Source: Gammaproteobacteria bacterium
GTDB lineage: Bacteria; Pseudomonadota; Gammaproteobacteria; Enterobacterales; Neiellaceae
DNA length: 64,000 nt
Direction: 5' to 3'
NCBI GenBank assembly: GCA_017425245.1
Contig: JAFOOX010000037.1
Coordinates: forward strand, 1-64,000
Shown here: positions 263-11,217 of the stretch, piece after piece
Layout of the letters: every line of letters begins with the position of its first letter
Position numbering within the stretch: position 1 is the first letter of the stretch
Notes under the pieces: generated by a model
Seen by the model: the letters and a program-made list of their open reading frames with translations, nothing else
Told to the model about the DNA's origin: nothing
The model's database searches: none
Program-made: the position numbers and the translations under genes

Positions 263-1143
263 GAGCACTGAAGAACCTGTTTTTGCCCCATGGGGGGCCT
301 GATTTTGGCGACTGCTACCAGATCCTCGTTGACTGTGGCACTGCCGACATCTCCCTGACTGTGCCTCGTAGCCCAAGGTTTCCTAAAAAGCCGTGGACAC
401 ATCCGACTCGACTTGACCTGACCAATCCCGACCTTATCCCCTATGAAACATATAGAGACTTCAAGGATGAGAGAACGCTCCATCCCTACATCGATATCGG
501 GGTGGGTGAATGGTTCTATCTGGCCCCCCGCCTTGATATCACGACTCAGGGTGAGCCTTACGTGTGTGCCACGGGCTGCTGGCGCATTGAGCGCACCAAG
601 CAGAACATTCAGATGGAGCCTGGCAACCTGCAGCGCCTCACCCAATACCTCAAGGACGACTATGCCATCTTCTTCGAGCAAGAAGGCGATGGCAAGGATA
701 CTTGCGGTCCCGCGTGGCGGGTTAAGAAGCAGCTCTATGACTTTTACAGTGGTCGCCACCATCCCATCGAGTTCTACGCCAGCGAGATCAAAGAGATTCT
801 GGCGGAAAAGTTGCCCAAACTGCCGGATGACTACACCGAAGTCACCTTCGGCAACACCAGTTGGGTGCGCTACAGCTATGTGCCGCACCGTGGCTTGCCC
901 ACTGCCATCAACTACTCATTGCCGCTGGATGCCAACCACCTGCTGACCATCAGTATCAGCCTGGTGCGCTTTCTCGAACGGGATGAAAAATGGCTGGCGC
1001 AGGCGCGCGCAGACTTTGATCGACTGGTCGCCGGCACCCAGGTGCATTATCGTCAGCTGGCGGGAGTTGATCCTCAAGCAAGTCGGGAGGAGACCGTTTT
1101 ACCCACGGCACTGCTTCGCCCGCTTACCAGCCGCGCCGGTTGA
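259..1143 (+). CDS. hypothetical protein, unrecognised family
   Basis: A 294-residue soluble-looking protein with no signal peptide or membrane segment. It is rich in aromatic residues and prolines (for example RSPRFPKKPWTHP near residue 40 and a GEWFYLAPRLDI stretch near residue 85), which points to a globular fold, but I do not recognise the family. Its ATG overlaps the stop of the upstream gene by 4 bp. The gene converges on the HNH nuclease gene, with only the CRISPR-like remnant between them; the degenerate second repeat overlaps its stop codon. Codon use looks normal, so I think it is a real gene. A role as an immunity or accessory protein is possible but unsupported. Confidence 0.6.
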   Translation: MRALKNLFLPHGGPDFGDCYQILVDCGTADISLTVPRSPRFPKKPWTHPTRLDLTNPDLIPYETYRDFKDERTLHPYIDIGVGEWFYLAPRLDITTQGEPYVCATGCWRIERTKQNIQMEPGNLQRLTQYLKDDYAIFFEQEGDGKDTCGPAWRVKKQLYDFYSGRHHPIEFYASEIKEILAEKLPKLPDDYTEVTFGNTSWVRYSYVPHRGLPTAINYSLPLDANHLLTISISLVRFLERDEKWLAQARADFDRLVAGTQVHYRQLAGVDPQASREETVLPTALLRPLTSRAG

Positions 1144-1221
1144 GTGGGTATAGGCAACGGTTATCGAGGGATATATCAACGGCGTAGCCAATCGGTTCAT
1201 CCCCGCAATTGCGGGGAACGG
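1132..1221 (-). CRISPR. Relict type I-E-like CRISPR repeat, 32-nt spacer-like segment, degenerate repeat start
   Basis: Read on the minus strand, 1221-1193 is a 29-nt sequence with the layout of a type I-E repeat. It has a GTTCCCCGC arm, an AATT loop, a GCGGGG arm and the 3' handle ATGAACCG. The core CCCCGC-AATT-GCGGGG is a perfect 16-nt palindrome. The next 32 nt (1192-1161), the usual I-E spacer length, lead into CCGTTGCC (1160-1153), which matches 7 of 8 bases of the repeat's 5' end; the rest of that second repeat is lost. Terminal repeats of arrays commonly decay at their 3' side. No cas gene or leader is visible. The hairpin may also act as a terminator between the two converging genes. 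Confidence 0.5.
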
Positions 1222-1222
1222 A

Positions 1223-2101
1223 CTAGCGGCCCTCTAACACATTCCCTTTAATCAACCTGGAAAGCTGTGGATCGTTGCGCACGAGCAAACACCAACAAGC
1301 AACGGCGGACAGTTCCGCCGATGGACTGATCATCTCCCGCATCCGAGCCCGAACCTCGGTCAGTTTCGCCTTGGCTGCCGGGTTATTGCCAGCGCTACAT
1401 CGGGCCTTGGCCTTTGTAAAGTCGTCGATCAACCTATCCACCTGTTGCCATACCTTGCGACGCGCTTCTGCCAACGGCGCATGCTCATTGAGTTTGAGCC
1501 GCTTAACTGTTTCGATGACACGCTCTTGGTCCCAAGCGGAGGAACCTGGAATGGGAACAACCTTGCCTTCTTCATCAAAAGCGATCAGCGCCACATCGTC
1601 GTCATCAATCGGGTCGAGCAGATAACGCGTTTCTGATTCCTCACAAGGCGCTGCGTAAGAGGAGCATAGCGAGCCGTTCTTGAGTGGAAACCAGCCACCT
1701 TTCTTGCGGTTGCCGACATTGCCGCAAACGCGGAAGTTCATGTAATCGAACGCCAGCCACCAGTAGCCATCACGCAGACCGGCATCCAGCGCCTTGGCTT
1801 CTTTCTTTGGCCGGAAATGCTCTACGTCGTAATGCGAGTACAGCTCGCGCACTTCCGAGAACCAGCACTTGCCCGCCGACAACGCCAACAGCCATTGCTT
1901 CAAGGCGCCCCAGTGAGCACTGTTGGCATCGATCAGGGCATTGCGTTCCTCTCGCTTTCCCGCAGCATCCAGGGCAGCCAAATCAGCCACCAGTTGAGCC
2001 GACTTCGCCAACCAGGCATCCCACTGCGCTTGCGTCCAGGGCACCCAGTTCGGGATATCGGTATCGGTGGGCCGCTTGTGCTCCAGGTCAATCCAAATCA
2101 C
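1223..2101 (-). CDS. HNH endonuclease, PtuB-like (Septu / retron-type, TIGR02646-like)
   Basis: This 292-residue protein carries an HNH core. KCWFSE (residues 78-83) precedes the catalytic-type YDVEHFRPKK (91-100), followed by the NFRVCGNVGNRKKG stretch (122-135) that ends the finger. This pattern is typical of the HNH partner of SMC-like ATPases in Septu systems and of some retron effectors. It starts with GTG in a GTGA overlap with the ATPase stop, so the two products are likely made in a fixed ratio and act as a complex. It is the last gene of the defence operon and its stop lies 1 nt from the CRISPR-like repeat. No reverse transcriptase or ncRNA gene is present, so a retron is unlikely. 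The presumed activity is nicking or cutting of phage or host nucleic acid once the ATPase senses infection. Confidence 0.8.
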   Translation of the reverse strand: MIWIDLEHKRPTDTDIPNWVPWTQAQWDAWLAKSAQLVADLAALDAAGKREERNALIDANSAHWGALKQWLLALSAGKCWFSEVRELYSHYDVEHFRPKKEAKALDAGLRDGYWWLAFDYMNFRVCGNVGNRKKGGWFPLKNGSLCSSYAAPCEESETRYLLDPIDDDDVALIAFDEEGKVVPIPGSSAWDQERVIETVKRLKLNEHAPLAEARRKVWQQVDRLIDDFTKAKARCSAGNNPAAKAKLTEVRARMREMISPSAELSAVACWCLLVRNDPQLSRLIKGNVLEGR

Positions 2102-3888
2102 GCGCCGTCCTCCTCGCGCAAGATTTCATCGATGATGGCATCGGCAATTTTGTCTTGCTCCGCTTGCTCCTCAGCCGTCAGAACCGGCTTACGGAAGCGC
2201 CGGTGCTGCGCCATTTTGCGCACAAAAAGCGCGTAATCCGGGTCGCGAAAGTCCGCTGTGGAAAAACCCAAGTCGGCCAATTCAGCAGAGAGACGGGTCA
2301 GTTCGGCATCTTCCTCAGGCGTCCGCGGCTGCTTAACGAACAACTCATTACGCCGAAAAAGGCGCCGCTCGGTTTCGATATCCAGCGTGGATGACAAACC
2401 AAACAGCTCGCTTTTCAGCAGCCCGGTCACCCCCATGCCTTGCGGGTGTTCATCGGGTACATCCACCAGCGTGCGGCCACCATTGCGGCGCAAGATATGC
2501 ACCTGCTCGCGCTTGAGGCTGCCCACCATCATAGGGTCATGGGTGGTGATGATGATCTGCGACTCTCCCTGCACCAGTGCAGCGTCGTCGGATGTCAGCA
2601 CGCCTTCTATGTCGTCGAAATAGCGCAGCTTCCAGATCGGGTTCAGATGGGTGTCGGGCTCATCGAGCAGGAACAGGCAATGGTCTTCGCGGGTGATGCG
2701 CATTAAGCCCAGCACCGTGAGCATCTGTAGCTCGCCTTCGGAAAGCTGGGTAAAGCTCACCTTGCCGCCGTGTTCGTCGCGCTTCTTCACCGTGATGCGC
2801 ACTTCATCGATCAGATCGCCAATGTAGGCGCCCTCAGCGTAACGGAAGAAGCTGTCGGTGCCGCCAACCAGCTCGCCCAGCTGCTTGAGCTTGTCTTGGC
2901 TGGGTACAAACAGATAGAGCTGCTTTTGCTTTTCACTGCGGCCCCGGAAGTCGATCTGTTTGGTCGCTTCCTGCTCGATGGGCGCCCAAGCCACCTGCCA
3001 GAGCTTATCGAGAAACTCGCTGACCACATTGCCACGCGCATACCAAAAGCGCGGGTCGCCTTCGTTCAGCTCCTGCCCGTCGAACTTGCCGCCTCGGCGC
3101 TTTTCTCGCAGGCGGTGCGGCTCCTTCAACACAAACAGGGCCGATTCCAGGGCTTCGATATGCAGGTTTTTGAGCACCTTCTGAAACACTGGATCAGTGG
3201 AGAGCAGGCAGGCCAGCAGCACCAACTGGCTGTGGCCACCACGGCAATAAAACAGGCGGCGCAGGCGGTCGTCGCCCGCTTGCCTCAAGCGTGAGGCGCG
3301 GCGCCGTTGAGCATCTTCGACGGCGCGAATATCCGCCTCAGAAGCGGAGAAGTTTTCCAGCAGCTGTTCCGACAGCACTTCATCGGTGGTGATCTCCTGG
3401 CGCTGGTTAAAACGGCGCTGATGCTCTTGAAACAGCGACTCGATACGCTCGTTGCGGCCGGAATAATAGGCAAAGATATGGGTGGGCAGCAGGCGCGGCC
3501 CACGACGGGGATCTTGGGGTACTTTGCCGGGCGGATCGTTCTTTGTCAGATACTCCTGGCTCACTCTGTCGCCATCCACCCACACATAAGGGCGTTTCTG
3601 TTTGGCGGTATCTGCCTCAATACGTACCGCGTGGCCACGGATGCTGTACTCCAGCGAGTAGTCAAACGCGGCATCCCGGTCCAGATCGATATCGCGGAAG
3701 ATGGTGATCAGCGCTTCGATCAAGTTGGACTTGCCGGTGCCGTTCTGGCCGATTAACGCATGGCTGCGGATCGGCTTGGGCCGTGCATCCGCGGGCGCGC
3801 CTACTGCTGGTTGCAGATATGACTCGAAGGTGATGTCGAGATCGCGCAGATTGCGAAAGGCCGGAATGCGGATGCGCTGCAACTGCAT
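2098..3888 (-). CDS. SMC/ABC-like AAA ATPase, PtuA-like, restriction-system associated
   Basis: An ATPase of about 596 residues with a RecF/SMC-like head. The N-terminus is IPAFRNLRDLDI, Walker A is IGQNGTGKSN (about residues 46-55), and a long middle insert follows. Near the C-terminus come an ABC signature LSEGE, Walker B LFLLDEPDTHLNP and a switch histidine in IIITTHDPM. This is the AAA_21/AAA_15 type used in Septu and other defence systems, and I recall a named family of restriction-system-associated AAA ATPases. The ATG at 3888 follows the hsdS stop by 1 nt; a GTG at 3897 would overlap hsdS by 8 nt. It is coupled to the HNH gene downstream. I infer that it is the sensor/regulator that controls the HNH nuclease, possibly by monitoring the restriction complex. 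Confidence 0.8.
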   Translation of the reverse strand: MQLQRIRIPAFRNLRDLDITFESYLQPAVGAPADARPKPIRSHALIGQNGTGKSNLIEALITIFRDIDLDRDAAFDYSLEYSIRGHAVRIEADTAKQKRPYVWVDGDRVSQEYLTKNDPPGKVPQDPRRGPRLLPTHIFAYYSGRNERIESLFQEHQRRFNQRQEITTDEVLSEQLLENFSASEADIRAVEDAQRRRASRLRQAGDDRLRRLFYCRGGHSQLVLLACLLSTDPVFQKVLKNLHIEALESALFVLKEPHRLREKRRGGKFDGQELNEGDPRFWYARGNVVSEFLDKLWQVAWAPIEQEATKQIDFRGRSEKQKQLYLFVPSQDKLKQLGELVGGTDSFFRYAEGAYIGDLIDEVRITVKKRDEHGGKVSFTQLSEGELQMLTVLGLMRITREDHCLFLLDEPDTHLNPIWKLRYFDDIEGVLTSDDAALVQGESQIIITTHDPMMVGSLKREQVHILRRNGGRTLVDVPDEHPQGMGVTGLLKSELFGLSSTLDIETERRLFRRNELFVKQPRTPEEDAELTRLSAELADLGFSTADFRDPDYALFVRKMAQHRRFRKPVLTAEEQAEQDKIADAIIDEILREEDGA

Positions 3889-3889
3889 A

Positions 3890-5647
3890 TCAGCCACCCA
3901 CCGCTTCAGTTAGCTTTTCACGCATCTCCGCCAGCGTCGGCTCCAAAATCCAGCCGCATGCCACCTCGGTTTTCAGTTGTGCATAAAAGGCATCGATCTC
4001 GCCACCGAAGCGTTGCCACAAATCCTTGGCGCTCATCTCGCCGTTATGGCGGGCCAAGATGGTGGCCAGCGGCGCCCGGTCCTTTACATCGGGTAGCCTT
4101 CCCAAACGCACAGGAGCAACCAGTTCAGTCTGTGGGGCTTTCATGGGTTCCTCTTCTTGTTCGACTGCGATGCCGGTTAGGCTTGAAACAACCGCCAGCG
4201 TCAGGGACTCAGCCAACTCCTGTTTCACCCTTAGCTGTCTTTCAAGCTTTTCGCACACGCCTTGGTAAGTGCGGAGCTTCACCAAAATAGCAACGCAAGT
4301 AGCCGGCGTTGGTACTGGCACAGGAACACTTCCTACCTGCGCAAGGTTGAGCCCTGGCTTGTCGCCGTATATGTAGCGAGCCAAAAAATTCCGACCGCCA
4401 AAGGTATTGATCATCCATGCGTGCACGAACTCGGCCAGCCAAGTTTCACGTAAACGAATCAGGGCGACGTGTTGACTGACATATGCGTCTTGGCTAAGTA
4501 CGGGAACCATCGCGCACTTACCCACATTCCCACCGGTAATCGTTAGCAGCAAGTCGCCTTGCCGAACAAGTGTGCGCTTCCCTTCGGCCTTAACTGGCAG
4601 CGACACAAACGCCGGATTCTCGAAGATCAACACATCGTGCTTGATGTCCTGCGACCGAATGAACGAGTCGCCGGTGTTGGATATGTAGGACTTCCATCCT
4701 CTTGAGCCGCTGGTGATGTACTCCGACAATTCTGCGAGGGTTTTCCAATGCCAGCCTCTGGGAAGTGGTGTAAGGCCATCCGCTAGGACGTCGGCCAAAT
4801 CTGGTCCCATCACCTCCGGGAGAAAAACTCCTCTCAGCGCGAGATCAAAAATCACATCTCGCAGCATACGAACATCCCCCGGCTCACTAAACAGCTGCCC
4901 AAAGTTGGCTTCCAGCCGTTTCCAGCTGTCTTGCAATTCGTGGGGGCTCTGGCTGCTGGCAACGGCTTGCAGCGTGGATTGGCGCAGATTGTTTTGTAAC
5001 GTGCGACGAGACCGCTGTTGCGCTTCCAGCTTGTCGCATAAGGCCATCAGCTCATCGACTTTGGCGACGATGTGTTCCTGCTCCTTTACCGATGGCAGAT
5101 CAATTGATTGGGCTTTAAGGATTGTTTGTGAGATGTTCTGTTGCGCGAGTCCCTTGCCTTGTGAAAACAAATGTTCTCGATTAGCACGAATAAAGATGAA
5201 CAGATAGGGTGTAAGAACGATGGCTTCATCTGGAATGCAATGGGCAATCGCCTGATTGGTTGCGCAGGCCATCCCAGCGATGCCCAGTTTGCCAATGGAT
5301 CCATACATTCCAATAAACAATGTGCCAGGTGGCACCAGCTTTGCAGAACTGTTCTCGAGGCCCTTCTGAGTGATTGATACAGATGCAGAATTAACTAGAC
5401 CATCATTTAGGTCACCAATGACCAGCCATGGAATGTCGCCACCATAGTAATCACCGTGGGTCTTTGCTGGGGTGCCCCCACTACCCCACTTCCCGATGTC
5501 GCCTAGAAGATACCTGCTTCTAGGTCCGATCTGATCATGCAACTTCCCCTGCATGGCAAACTGCAGAATGAGAAGCCTCAACTTCTCTACTCCTCCCCTC
5601 GCATTGGCAATATGCCCAAACTCGGCCAAAAACTGCTGTGCGTCCAT
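3890..5647 (-). CDS. hsdS: Type I restriction system specificity subunit HsdS, with a C-terminal extension
   Basis: A 585-residue DNA-recognition subunit of the HsdMS methylase and HsdRMS restriction complexes. There are two target-recognition domains. The first (about residues 45-190) contains GGTPAKTHGDYYGGDIPWL; the second (about 290-455) contains ITSGSRGW and GDLLLTITGGNVG. Each is followed by the conserved helical spacer (EQEHIVAKVDELMALCDKLE near 205; KLRTYQGVCEKLERQL near 460). Typical HsdS proteins end after the second spacer at about 400-480 residues. Here an extra 85 residues (501-585) follow a Glu-rich linker and look like a small winged-helix domain (APLATILARHNGEMSAKDLW, then DAFYAQLKTEV). 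The start overlaps the upstream nuclease stop in TGATG. The extension, encoded just before the ATPase/HNH pair, could link the modules. Confidence 0.9.
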   Translation of the reverse strand: MDAQQFLAEFGHIANARGGVEKLRLLILQFAMQGKLHDQIGPRSRYLLGDIGKWGSGGTPAKTHGDYYGGDIPWLVIGDLNDGLVNSASVSITQKGLENSSAKLVPPGTLFIGMYGSIGKLGIAGMACATNQAIAHCIPDEAIVLTPYLFIFIRANREHLFSQGKGLAQQNISQTILKAQSIDLPSVKEQEHIVAKVDELMALCDKLEAQQRSRRTLQNNLRQSTLQAVASSQSPHELQDSWKRLEANFGQLFSEPGDVRMLRDVIFDLALRGVFLPEVMGPDLADVLADGLTPLPRGWHWKTLAELSEYITSGSRGWKSYISNTGDSFIRSQDIKHDVLIFENPAFVSLPVKAEGKRTLVRQGDLLLTITGGNVGKCAMVPVLSQDAYVSQHVALIRLRETWLAEFVHAWMINTFGGRNFLARYIYGDKPGLNLAQVGSVPVPVPTPATCVAILVKLRTYQGVCEKLERQLRVKQELAESLTLAVVSSLTGIAVEQEEEPMKAPQTELVAPVRLGRLPDVKDRAPLATILARHNGEMSAKDLWQRFGGEIDAFYAQLKTEVACGWILEPTLAEMREKLTEAVGG

Positions 5648-6696
5648 CAGGCCTCCTCGCCACGGTTTTCCAGCCGCGCGCGTGAGCGGGTTATGGCTTC
5701 ATGCAGCTTGGCTTGCAGCACTTCTCGGGGCGGCAGGGTGGTGAGGTATTCGGCAACGTGGATGCCAGTTTGATCCAGCTCCAGCAGTTCGATCTGCTCC
5801 TGCTTTTTACCGCTGCACAGGATGATACCAAGGGGCGGTGCTTCACCCGGCTCCTGCTCGTGCTTGGTCAGCCAGCGCAGGTAAAGCTCCATCTGGCCTT
5901 TGTATTCAGCCTTGAACTCACCCAGTTTCAGCTCGATCACCACCAGCCGTTTCAGGCGGCGGTTGTAGAGCAGCAGATCGATGTAGAAATCGTCGTGGTC
6001 GATCTGAATGCGCTTTTGGCGGGCAACGAAGGTAAAGCCGGCGCCCAGCTCCAGCAGGAAGTTTTCCAGCTCGCGCAGGATGGCGTCTTCCAGGTCTTTT
6101 TCCAGATAGCGGTCCTGCAGCCCCAGAAAGTCCAGTACATAGGGGTCTTTCAGCAACAGCGCGGGCTTGAGCTCGCGGCTGGCGCGCAGGGCGGCCAGTT
6201 CGCTGGCGATCAGCTCCTCAGGCTGGCGCGAGAGCGCGGTGCGCTCAAACAACATCGAGTCCAGCCGGTCTTGCAGGGTGCGGGTGCTCCAGCCTTCCTG
6301 CTGGCACATCTGCAGGTAGAAGTCGCGCTTGAGCGGATCGTCGATGTAGATCAGGGTCTTGATGTGAGTCCAGCTCAATTGTCTCTGCACTGCGGAGACA
6401 ATATCCGCTGAGGGAAAGCTCTCGGCAAAGCGCAGCATGTGGCGCAGGTTTTTGGCCGAAAAGCCGCGCCCGTAATCAACCTCCAGTTGTCTCGACAGCA
6501 CCGAGACAACCTGCTCGCCGTAGGTGGCCCGCTCACTGCCAAGCACCTCAGTGCGGATGCGGTGGCCGATATGCCAATAGAGCATGGTGAGCGCACTGTT
6601 AACGGTGACAGCCAGTTGGCTGCGGCTATGCTCGATCAACTGGCGAATGTCGCCCAGCAATTGCGGCGTGCCGCCCGCCGTTACCTCAGGCGTCAT
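5647..6696 (-). CDS. YhcG/DUF1016-family PDDEXK nuclease
   Basis: A 349-residue protein with the N-terminal DUF1016 helical domain (YWHIGHRI near residue 41, YGRGFSAKNLRHMLRFAE near 75) and a C-terminal PDDEXK nuclease fold. The nuclease motif is visible as D240 in DDFYIDLLLYN and E255-x-K257 in VVIELKLGEF, followed by the conserved GQMELYLRW helix. Members of this family are often found in type I restriction operons between the methylase and specificity genes, as here. It overlaps hsdM by 4 bp (ATGA) and hsdS by 1 bp (TGATG). All predicted catalytic residues are present, so it should be an active DNase. Its exact role in defence is not established; it may degrade fragments made by HsdR or act independently. 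Confidence 0.88.
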   Translation of the reverse strand: MTPEVTAGGTPQLLGDIRQLIEHSRSQLAVTVNSALTMLYWHIGHRIRTEVLGSERATYGEQVVSVLSRQLEVDYGRGFSAKNLRHMLRFAESFPSADIVSAVQRQLSWTHIKTLIYIDDPLKRDFYLQMCQQEGWSTRTLQDRLDSMLFERTALSRQPEELIASELAALRASRELKPALLLKDPYVLDFLGLQDRYLEKDLEDAILRELENFLLELGAGFTFVARQKRIQIDHDDFYIDLLLYNRRLKRLVVIELKLGEFKAEYKGQMELYLRWLTKHEQEPGEAPPLGIILCSGKKQEQIELLELDQTGIHVAEYLTTLPPREVLQAKLHEAITRSRARLENRGEEA

Positions 6697-8471
6697 GCTT
6701 CGGCCTCCGGGCTGAAGTGGTGCGCCAAGGCAGCAGCCAACTCGCTCTTGAGCTGGTTCTCGGTCTCTTCAATTTCGCCCAGCAACTTTTTGTACTTCTC
6801 CAACAGCAGGTCGGGATCGTGCGTTTCCTCCTCCGGCGCGTTGGGGTTCTTGATATCAAGGTTGAAGATGGGCCAGTAGAGACGGTCGCCCGCTGCTTGC
6901 GCATCACGCGCTTGCAGGCGCAAGGGTTCCGCTTTGGCTCGTAGCTCGGCAATCTGCGCTTCGATTTTTTCGCGGTAAGCGGCATCGGTGCTGCCCACTA
7001 AGCTGCTGCGTAAGTCTTTAGCCTCGGCTTCCAGCGCGGCAGCCTGATTGTTCAGCTCTTCGGCGCGCTGCCAATGCGGCTGTGCAGCGGCTTCAGCCTG
7101 TTCGCGCTTGGCTTTGAAATCGACCTTCCAGGCACGCTCATTTTCCACGCGATCGGCAAAGTCGTTGGCCTCATCCCCCCACCACTCCTGTTCAGGCTTG
7201 AACTCCTCCAACCGGATCGGCTTGGTTTTGGAGTAGCTCTTGTAGCCCGGCGGGTAGGGGTGCTCATAGAACCAGATGGTATCGGTATGAAAGTGTTCGC
7301 TGCCATCATCCACCGTGCTGCCCTTGGTAAAGAACAGCAGATTGGTTTTGATGGTGGTGTACGGGGCAAACACCCCCTTGGGCAGGCGGATAATGGTGTG
7401 CAGCTTGCAGTCGCGCAGCAGCAACCGTTTCAGCGAGCCCTTGACGCCATCGCCAAACAGGAAGCCATCAGGCAACACCACGGCGGCACGGCCATTGTCC
7501 TTCAACAGCTTTTTGATGATGAGCGCCATGAACATGTCAGCAGTTTCGCGTGTCTTGAGGTCCGCTGGGTAGTCGCTGCCAACGCCATCATCTTCATAGC
7601 CACCGAAGGGCGGGTTAGTGATGATGCAGTCAACTTTTTCGCTGGCCCGCCACTCGTTCCACCCTTTGCCGAGGGTATTTCTGTGCTCAATCTGACTGGG
7701 CACATCTATGCCATGCAGCAGCATATTGGTGGTGCACAGCAGGTGGGGCAGCTGCTTTTTCTCGATGCCATGGATCAGCGCTTCAATGGCGCGTTTGTCT
7801 TCAGCGCTCGATTTGGTGGTGAGCTGATGGCGGAAGTGGTCAATGGCGGCGGTCAAGAAACCACCGGTGCCACAGGCCGGATCCATCACTGTTTCGCGCT
7901 TGTCCAAGCGCGGGTTAACACGGTCGGCCATAAAGGCGGTGATGGCGCGCGGTGTGTAAAACTCGCCCGCGTTACCGGCGCCGCGCAGGTCATTAAGCAT
8001 TTGCTCATAGACATCGCCCAGGCTGGCTCGGGTTTTGAAGTCATGGAAGTTGATCGCCTCTTCCAGCTTCTCGATCACGGCGAGCATCTGCGGGCCAGAC
8101 TTCATGTAGTTGTTGGCATCACGGAATACTTCGCGGATCACCTTGTGCTGGGGGCTCTTGCTGGCATTCAGCTCTTTGAGCTCCGGGAACAGATCGTTGT
8201 TGACGAAGCTGATCAGATCACTAGCCGCAATCTGCGGCTTCTTTTTACCCTCGGCATCTACTGTGTAGGCTGCCCAGTTGCGCCAGCGGCAGTCTTCCGG
8301 CAGCGGCGATTTGTAGTCCGAGTTGTCGTCTTCCCATTCCTCTTCACGCTGATCAAATACTTTGAGAAACAACATCCAGGTTAACTGTCCGAGGCGCTGG
8401 GCATCGCCATCGACGCCGTCGTCCTTGCGCATGATGTCCTGGATCGATTTGATTGTGCTGCTGAGATTCAT
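6693..8471 (-). CDS. hsdM: Type I restriction system N6-adenine methyltransferase HsdM
   Basis: A 592-residue DNA adenine methylase that protects host sites together with HsdS. It has an N-terminal helical HsdM_N domain (STIKSIQDIMRKDDG). SAM motif I is MDPACGTGGF (196-205) and catalytic motif IV is ITNPPFGG (284-291). Near the C-terminus is a long Ala/Glu/Lys-rich coiled coil (about residues 450-530), which typically packs against HsdS. All methylase motifs are intact. It lies 38 bp downstream of hsdR and overlaps the DUF1016 gene by 4 bp. The order hsdR-hsdM-(nuclease)-hsdS is common in this subfamily. Confidence 0.95.
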   Translation of the reverse strand: MNLSSTIKSIQDIMRKDDGVDGDAQRLGQLTWMLFLKVFDQREEEWEDDNSDYKSPLPEDCRWRNWAAYTVDAEGKKKPQIAASDLISFVNNDLFPELKELNASKSPQHKVIREVFRDANNYMKSGPQMLAVIEKLEEAINFHDFKTRASLGDVYEQMLNDLRGAGNAGEFYTPRAITAFMADRVNPRLDKRETVMDPACGTGGFLTAAIDHFRHQLTTKSSAEDKRAIEALIHGIEKKQLPHLLCTTNMLLHGIDVPSQIEHRNTLGKGWNEWRASEKVDCIITNPPFGGYEDDGVGSDYPADLKTRETADMFMALIIKKLLKDNGRAAVVLPDGFLFGDGVKGSLKRLLLRDCKLHTIIRLPKGVFAPYTTIKTNLLFFTKGSTVDDGSEHFHTDTIWFYEHPYPPGYKSYSKTKPIRLEEFKPEQEWWGDEANDFADRVENERAWKVDFKAKREQAEAAAQPHWQRAEELNNQAAALEAEAKDLRSSLVGSTDAAYREKIEAQIAELRAKAEPLRLQARDAQAAGDRLYWPIFNLDIKNPNAPEEETHDPDLLLEKYKKLLGEIEETENQLKSELAAALAHHFSPEAEA

Positions 8472-8509
8472 CGAGTGCTTCTTTTGGTTTGGCGATGGCC
8501 GAGCGGGGC

Positions 8510-10918
8510 TCAGGCCTGCTTCTGTTCAGATAAGTCGTAGAGCGCTTGCTCCAGCTCACTCACCGCTTGGGTGTATTGCTCAACGCCGCCAAAAATGCCG
8601 CGACGGATCTGGGTCTTGCTACCGAATTGGTCAAAGGGCGGCAACTCCAGCACCTTGGCATCTTCGATGTCCTGAACGCCGTGGTCGGCAAACTTGTCGA
8701 GCAGGGCCTCAAGCACGGCTCGGGCTTGCTCTCCATACTTGCCGAAGGCATCGCGCTTTTTGACACTGTTGGCTCGCTCCCGGCGGGTGAGCGGTTTTTG
8801 GTCGAAGGCAACATGAGCGACCAGATCAAACAGATCCAACTCACTGCCATTCGCCACCGCTTGTTGCAAAGTCTCGAGCTGTACGCCCTGTTCAGTGAGC
8901 GCTTCGAGCACGGCTTGCTTGCGCTCCGTGCCGTTCCAGCGACGCAAGAAATCGGTCAAGGTACCGAATTCGGCTTGCAACCGTTTCTTGATATCGTCCT
9001 TGAGCAGGACGCGGAAATCCTCGGTGATCAGCTTGCCGTCGGCATCCAGATATTGCGAACGCTCCACCGCCACCTGCACAGTGACATCGTCGATAACATA
9101 CTTGATGCGTCCCTCGCCCCCACCCGTTCCTTCACCAGTGGCACCGAGCTCGTAGGGCGGAGGCGTGGGTTCACCCGTGCCCGGCACCTCAGTAACCTCA
9201 GGCGGCAGAACGGGATCCTCAACACCAGACTCATAGACAACAACGGGTTCACCATCAAAGTCCGGATCAGCAAACAGGCGCGTGGCCCCCTTGAAGTCCA
9301 TGATGGTGAAGTACAGCTTTTGGTAGTCCTCACGCAGCCTCGTGCCACGGCCAATGATCTGCTTGAACTCCGTCATTGAGTTGATGGTCTGGTCGAGCAC
9401 GATCAATTTGCAGGTTTTGGCATCAACCCCTGTCGTCAGCAGCTTCGAGGTAGTGGCAATTACCGGATAGGGCTCGTCGTTGTCGATAAAGTAGGAAAGC
9501 TGGGCCTTGCCTTCGTTATCGTCGCCGGTGATGCGCATGACGTAACGACGGTTGCTGGCAGCAGCCGGGATCAGCTTTACCAGCTCTTGGCGCATCCGCT
9601 CGGCATGCTCCTGGTCATCGCAAAAGACGATGGTCTTGGCCATTGGATCCGTGGCTTTGAGGTACTCCCAAACTTTTCGGGCAACCAGCTTGGTGCGATC
9701 TTCCAGCACTAACGTGCGGTCAAAGTCCTTACTGTTGTACTGGCGCTGTTCAACCGCTTGACCATGCTTATCGACTTTGCCCTTTTCCGGTGTGTATCCC
9801 ACTGCATCCACATCCGTGGCAATGCGAATAACCTTGTAGGGGGCCAGAAAACCGTCTTCGATGCCCTGCTTGAGCGAGTAGGTGTAGACCGGTTCGCCGA
9901 AGTAGGTGATGTTGCTGACCTCTTTGGTCTCCTTCGGGGTGGCGGTAAGCCCTAAATGGGTGGCTTGACTGAAATACTCAAGCACTTCACGCCAGGCTGA
10001 ATCTTCGGCGGCACTGCCGCGATGACACTCATCGACCACAATCAGATCGAAGAAGTCAGCGGGAAACTGCTTGTAAATTTGCTTCCACTCATCCTTACCG
10101 GTGACGGCCTGATAAAGGGCGAGGTAGATCTCGTAGTTCTTCTTGATCTCGCGGTTGGCAACCTTGTGCATTACCTCGCCAAAGGGGGCGAAGTCCTGTT
10201 GCATGGTTTGGTCAACAAGGATGTTTCGGTCTGCCAGGAACAAGATGCGTTTTTTGGCTTTGGCCTTCCACAGGCGCCAGATGATCTGGAACGCGGTGTA
10301 GGTTTTTCCGGTGCCAGTCGCCATGACTAGCAACACCCGCTGCTGGCCTTTTGCCACCGCTTCGATAGTACGGTTAATGGCGACACGTTGGTAGTAGCGA
10401 GGCTCCTTGCCGCTGCCATCAGTGTGGAACGGTTGTTCGACCAGTTTGATCGCCTCGGGAGCGGTCATCCCTTTCCACTGCTGATAAAGGGGCCAAAGAT
10501 CGTCCAAGCGAGGAAATTCGCTGAGCAGGAGCTCACGCTCTACCGGCTGGGTAAGCCCTGTCCGATCATGCAGCAGAAAACCTTGCCCATTGCTACTGAT
10601 GGCAAACGGAGCATCGAGCATCTCGGCGTAGGCCAAGGCCTGTTGCATGCCATGCCCAATGGAAAACTTGGCTTGCTTGGCTTCAACCACGGCAATCGGG
10701 ACATTAGGCCGGGCATAGAGCACGAAATCCGCGCGCTTGGGGCCTCCTGGCACTTCCGGGTTCTTGATACGAGCGGCGAGGTTGCCCCGAACGACAACAC
10801 GCCCATCGGTCAGATTCACTTCTTCATGAAACTGATGTTGATGCCAACCCGCCTGCAACATCGCTGGCGTGATGCACTTGGTGCAGATGTCGCGCTCGCT
10901 GAGCTGGCGTTGGTCCAT
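8510..10918 (-). CDS. hsdR: Type I restriction system ATP-dependent translocase/endonuclease HsdR
   Basis: An 802-residue motor and nuclease subunit. The N-terminal PDDEXK nuclease is seen as ADFVLYARPNVPIAVVEAKQ (D and E-x-K near residues 64 and 79-81). The SF2 helicase core has Walker A MATGTGKT (199-206), DECH (296-299), GLTATPK (323-329) and the C-terminal IIGRGTRLRED motif. The C-terminus resembles the EcoEI R_C type. I prefer the ATG at 10918 because GGAG lies 10 nt upstream; the ATG at 10951 has no ribosome site. It is the promoter-proximal gene of the defence operon, so the restriction subunit is encoded before the protective methylase, which implies post-transcriptional control of restriction during establishment. 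Confidence 0.93.
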   Translation of the reverse strand: MDQRQLSERDICTKCITPAMLQAGWHQHQFHEEVNLTDGRVVVRGNLAARIKNPEVPGGPKRADFVLYARPNVPIAVVEAKQAKFSIGHGMQQALAYAEMLDAPFAISSNGQGFLLHDRTGLTQPVERELLLSEFPRLDDLWPLYQQWKGMTAPEAIKLVEQPFHTDGSGKEPRYYQRVAINRTIEAVAKGQQRVLLVMATGTGKTYTAFQIIWRLWKAKAKKRILFLADRNILVDQTMQQDFAPFGEVMHKVANREIKKNYEIYLALYQAVTGKDEWKQIYKQFPADFFDLIVVDECHRGSAAEDSAWREVLEYFSQATHLGLTATPKETKEVSNITYFGEPVYTYSLKQGIEDGFLAPYKVIRIATDVDAVGYTPEKGKVDKHGQAVEQRQYNSKDFDRTLVLEDRTKLVARKVWEYLKATDPMAKTIVFCDDQEHAERMRQELVKLIPAAASNRRYVMRITGDDNEGKAQLSYFIDNDEPYPVIATTSKLLTTGVDAKTCKLIVLDQTINSMTEFKQIIGRGTRLREDYQKLYFTIMDFKGATRLFADPDFDGEPVVVYESGVEDPVLPPEVTEVPGTGEPTPPPYELGATGEGTGGGEGRIKYVIDDVTVQVAVERSQYLDADGKLITEDFRVLLKDDIKKRLQAEFGTLTDFLRRWNGTERKQAVLEALTEQGVQLETLQQAVANGSELDLFDLVAHVAFDQKPLTRRERANSVKKRDAFGKYGEQARAVLEALLDKFADHGVQDIEDAKVLELPPFDQFGSKTQIRRGIFGGVEQYTQAVSELEQALYDLSEQKQA

Positions 10919-11217
10919 ATCCTGTACTCTCCAGTTACTAACGCTCGTCATTTTGGTTAGCTACGCCACTATCAACAGCTGACAGCTAAAACGCCCACAC
11001 TCAACCGCTCTGGTTTACCGGTTTAGCTGCTGCCGTCACACCCGTGAGAGATGATTTTCCGCGCACTGGCAAAGTTGGCGCCAAAGCGCCACGAGTCTAA
11101 AAGAGAGCAGGCGCGACGGCCATAGCTACATGATGCGCAAAGCCAACTAGGCGCCCTGCCGCAACATTAACGGACTGTTACTCAGGCTGAACGATCGGAT
11201 ATCGCGATGCGTGACCC
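10919..11217. other. Intergenic region between hsdR and bioD; presumed hsdR promoter
   Basis: About 300 bp with no convincing gene. It holds a short perfect hairpin (TGGCGC-CAAA-GCGCCA, 11076-11091) and a tandem-like GGTTTACCGGTTTAG at 11017-11031. I see no tRNA, integrase or clear att repeat that would mark how the island was inserted, and no intrinsic terminator with a T-run for bioD. The defence operon promoter must lie here, on the minus strand. Confidence 0.5.

Follow-up and report, generated by a model that had tools for sequence, protein, structure and literature searches.

At the edge of a restriction-modification and Septu island, in the 64,000-nt stretch of DNA analysed here (the window), a single 29-nt sequence at positions 1193-1221 on the minus strand is, judged by its sequence, a genuine type I-E CRISPR repeat. 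We consider it likely, with a probability of roughly 0.8, that this locus is what remains, without function, of an old type I-E array, most probably of its leader-distal end. The leader, the other spacers and the cas genes of that array would have been lost, one repeat would have stayed intact, followed by one spacer and by a terminal repeat that decayed past its first 8 bases, and the remnant would have been caught between a tandem cluster of immunity-like genes and a type I RM/Septu island that moved in, within unique DNA of about 190 bp. We infer the past array, the order of loss and the absence of function alike; the defence operon would have replaced the leader and the other spacers, as the earlier note on this DNA had envisaged, and no ancestral array was found.

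The intact repeat and its relatives

Read from 1221 to 1193 on the minus strand, the repeat is CCGTTCCCCGCAATTGCGGGGATGAACCG, 29 nt in length, with an intact stem and the loop AATT, and it folds as a hairpin. It has the form of the 29-nt palindrome G-TTCCCCGC-N4-GCGGGGAT-AACCG that characterizes type I-E repeats, and it fits 22 of the 22 fixed positions of the I-E pattern, including the ATGAACCG handle, with zero such fits expected by chance; the pattern was derived from this repeat itself, and independent support comes from its matches to full arrays elsewhere. The claim of a 29-nt repeat of I-E type is borne out on both counts, by the fit at all fixed positions and by the similar repeats in full arrays of other genomes. 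The 26-nt I-E core, TTCCCCGCNNNNGCGGGGATGAACCG, matches the window at one place only, even when 3 mismatches are tolerated, matches none of 100 shuffles of the window, and is single-copy in the whole 3.45-Mb host genome with up to 2 mismatches allowed. No further repeat lies upstream of 1221 at array spacing, the exact 29-nt repeat is found nowhere in the genome_contigs set, the exact 27-nt repeat is found in no viral contig, the version with the AATT loop was found nowhere else, and an Rfam search returned nothing relevant.

The comparison with the same and related genomes, which the earlier note had proposed, gave one copy in the host and, among 394 genomes of the order, arrays of the related type in five genomes besides the host, with 43-158 copies of repeats that start with CCG or CTG, have the same stem and recur with a 61-nt period. 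Repeats of full I-E arrays elsewhere differ from the one at 1193-1221 mainly in the loop, and one repeat copy (in genome G352) is identical to it outside the loop. Among the nearest plasmid relatives of the repeat, one lies just downstream of cas1e/cas2e in Azospirillum. A plasmid of Acetobacter persici has a lone I-E-like repeat (L130 2001-2031); no cas gene is annotated within 2 kb of it, and it is another possible orphan.

The spacer-sized segment and the putative second repeat

The intact repeat is followed by a spacer-sized segment of 32 nt, ATTGGCTACGCCGTTGATATATCCCTCGATAA, at 1161-1192 on the minus strand. Past this segment (1192-1161), the minus strand continues CCGTTGCC..., which agrees with the start of the repeat at 7 of 8 bases, and such a prefix occurs at that fixed offset with a frequency of 4e-4 (about 4 in 10,000). 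The putative degenerate terminal repeat, at 1132-1160 on the minus strand, reaches into the 3' terminus of gene 259-1143 and is recognisable over its first 8 nt only, its identity over the full length being 12/29, which 6% of the 29-mers in the window equal. With an exact 29+32 register, the arrangement described in the earlier note, a repeat followed after exactly 32 nt by a degenerate repeat start, holds, the degenerate repeat being real over those 8 bases only. Terminal repeats of intact I-E arrays in the same order are often degenerate and can retain the 5' part only, as at the array ends CCGTTCCCCGTAGGAATTACCGG... (L114), CTGTTCCCCGCATTTGCAGGGATGCTACT (L117) and CCGTTCCCCTCAGGCACGGGGATAAAACG (L113), and likewise in L116. 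This is how a leader-distal end should look, repeat decay having been described there (PMC4869251).

The 32-nt segment is without a convincing protospacer in phages or viral contigs. Of the searches that the earlier note had suggested for this segment, the one against phages yielded only 22-nt matches of 91% identity with an E value of 3, and the 21-nt core and the 19-nt 3' piece had no match in viral contigs. The 17-nt 5' piece recovered 13 viral contigs, with just 19-22 of the 32 bases identical, and these matches were taken as chance. A single match is notable, with 24/24 nt on plasmid p2 of Nostoc sphaeroides (E 1e-3). This site is intergenic, upstream of mobC on a mobilizable plasmid, recurs with one change on a plasmid of N. 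edaphicum (L081 301-324; L082 301-324) and, compared over all 32 nt, differs at positions 1 and 3; its flank is AAT, not an I-E PAM, and the sequence in common, CGGCTACGCC, is a short repeat on the Nostoc plasmid. The match is odd and partial.

The cas genes of the host

The earlier note had stated that no cas genes accompany the repeat, and the genome agrees: cas7e and cas6e are absent from the host assembly, which is 89% complete, and the resident Cas1 locus looks I-F. The search for I-E effector genes covered cas7e and cas6e. The single Cas1 match in the genome is on contig 31 (L027 56-8141), separate from the repeat, and has as neighbours a cas2-3-sized gene, four more genes arranged as in I-F loci and an array whose 28-nt repeat belongs to another family; judging by gene order and repeat, this locus is probably type I-F. 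The specificity of Cas6f (Csy4) is for its own hairpin, and an I-E repeat is not an expected substrate.

The defence island and its junction

The repeat region lies between two convergent genes. On one side, all on the minus strand, are a Septu pair composed of a PtuB-like HNH protein (1223-2101) and a PtuA-like AAA ATPase (2098-3897), and a type I RM operon (3890-10951) with HsdS (3890-5647), a PDDEXK DUF1016 protein (5647-6696), HsdM (6693-8471) and HsdR (8510-10951). The DUF1016/YhcG PDDEXK protein sits between hsdM and hsdS in this operon. The distance of 1 nt given earlier between the 5' edge of the repeat and the HNH stop is correct, the ptuB stop ending at 1223. On the other side is a plus-strand gene of unknown family (259-1143), with three paralogs in the genome (contigs 21, 71 and 39) and no Pfam, PADLOC or PHROG match to its protein. 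It is preceded by a lipase-like fragment, and the contig 21 copy has an HSQGA motif (1-1143; L032; L033; L034). The fragment and the gene are a probable effector/immunity pair, and the 1-1143 region probably consists of tandemly duplicated effector/immunity genes of a T6SS.

Homology breaks off on both sides of the repeat. At the DNA level, the 259-1143 gene resembles its contig 21 paralog up to 1063, and unique filler continues from there (1064-1131). Most of 42 relatives match PtuB as far as residue 284, position 1250, and the Shewanella salipaludis copy matches ptuB at the DNA level as far as 1253, leaving 28 nt without homology (1222-1249, minus strand) that encode the last 8 PtuB residues and the stop, and that may represent the bulk of another spacer or else a leader that has decayed. 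Between the end of PtuB homology and the repeat lie about 28-32 nt, nearly the length of one spacer; a join at an old border of repeat and spacer would agree with this distance, which is not significant alone. A search of 20 relatives with a 201-bp junction query gave no convincing homolog of the 186-190 bp between the homology ends. An I-E repeat near or after ptuB was found in 0 of the 42 related islands, and the Septu/type I RM island therefore does not include the repeat.

Weighing the explanations

Several findings argue for a remnant, namely, the exact single-copy I-E core, the exact register, the 7/8 prefix, the same-stem arrays in the order and their 5'-only terminal repeats, the 42 repeat-less islands and the missing cas7e and cas6e. 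Against it count the lack of any decay in the surviving repeat, unusual for a long-dead array, the weakness of the second repeat over its full length and the missing protospacer; moreover, an intact array at the same site was found in no genome, the same-genus genome being just 60% complete. A further point against a leader-distal origin is the CTAGT with which the 28 nt preceding the repeat finish, close to the TTAGT that closes the leaders of related arrays: the repeat could instead be the first of the array and these 28 nt the end of its leader, CTAGT|CCG resembling TTAGT|CCG. We regard this as unlikely, given that the likeness to related leaders ends after about 4 nt and that the next repeat is degenerate, as distal ones typically are; both polarities would be compatible with an array collapsed to one spacer. 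That the hairpin is of other origin, a terminator or REP-like element with a chance likeness to I-E repeats, agrees with its fold and its place between convergent genes and is nonetheless highly improbable, in view of the fit at every fixed position, handle included. The sequence is single-copy in the genome and is therefore not a REP-like or generic repeated element; no T-run adjoins the hairpin on either side, and it is therefore not an intrinsic terminator. The earlier note had named, as observations that would contradict it, the same hairpin at this gene end in relatives that lack an I-E system and many hairpin copies elsewhere; the hairpin has one copy in the genome and is missing from this gene end in the 42 related islands, and the leader-distal end of an old I-E array beside the defence operon is the best fit.

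The remaining possibilities attribute a function to the locus. The alternative raised by the earlier note is a CreA-like pseudo-array, in which a crRNA-like RNA made from the repeat and its 32-nt guide would send a I-E Cascade, which CreTA requires, to repress a host or toxin gene. A single ectopic repeat with a guide-sized segment and an intact stem is what such a unit would offer, and a CreTA module has one or two ectopic repeats, the first of them more diverged, and lies in physical linkage to a CRISPR-Cas locus (PMC9458426). Here, however, neither the linkage nor the cognate Cascade, sought through cas7e and cas6e, nor the more diverged first repeat was found, the only Cas1 locus is on another contig, and no seed match flanked by an I-E PAM occurs in the window, so that this alternative is doubtful in the extreme. 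It is just as doubtful that the locus is a Cas-less mini-array that borrows Cascade when its mobile island lands in an I-E host: the position at the very edge of the RM/Septu island is suggestive, but the 42 related islands lack the repeat, no viral contig has it in exact form, and a second intact repeat downstream, for a mature unit, is missing. Slightly less credible still is a single-repeat guide unit kept by selection at the island edge to supply crRNA-like RNA to a Cascade acquired in trans.

Comparison with known systems

As a leader-distal remnant, the locus would be the relic of an adaptive immune system since lost from a genome now equipped with type I RM, Septu and a probable I-F system, and a small case of defence turnover at one site, real but ordinary, that leaves knowledge of CRISPR unchanged. 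It shares with the type I-E arrays starting CCGTTCCCCGCA (G352, G343, G102) the 29-nt repeat, the stem, the type of 3' handle and the 32-nt spacing, whereas those arrays have 43-158 repeats and a conserved leader, and the loop here is AATT. The ectopic repeat and guide-length segment recall the CreA pseudo-array of CreTA (PMC9458426), from which the locus differs in that no Cascade and no linked cas genes were found and the order of degeneration is reversed. With orphan or isolated CRISPR arrays (PMC5294841), it has in common a real repeat, no cognate cas genes found and a likely origin as a remnant, but it contains one intact repeat only, below what array finders usually report.
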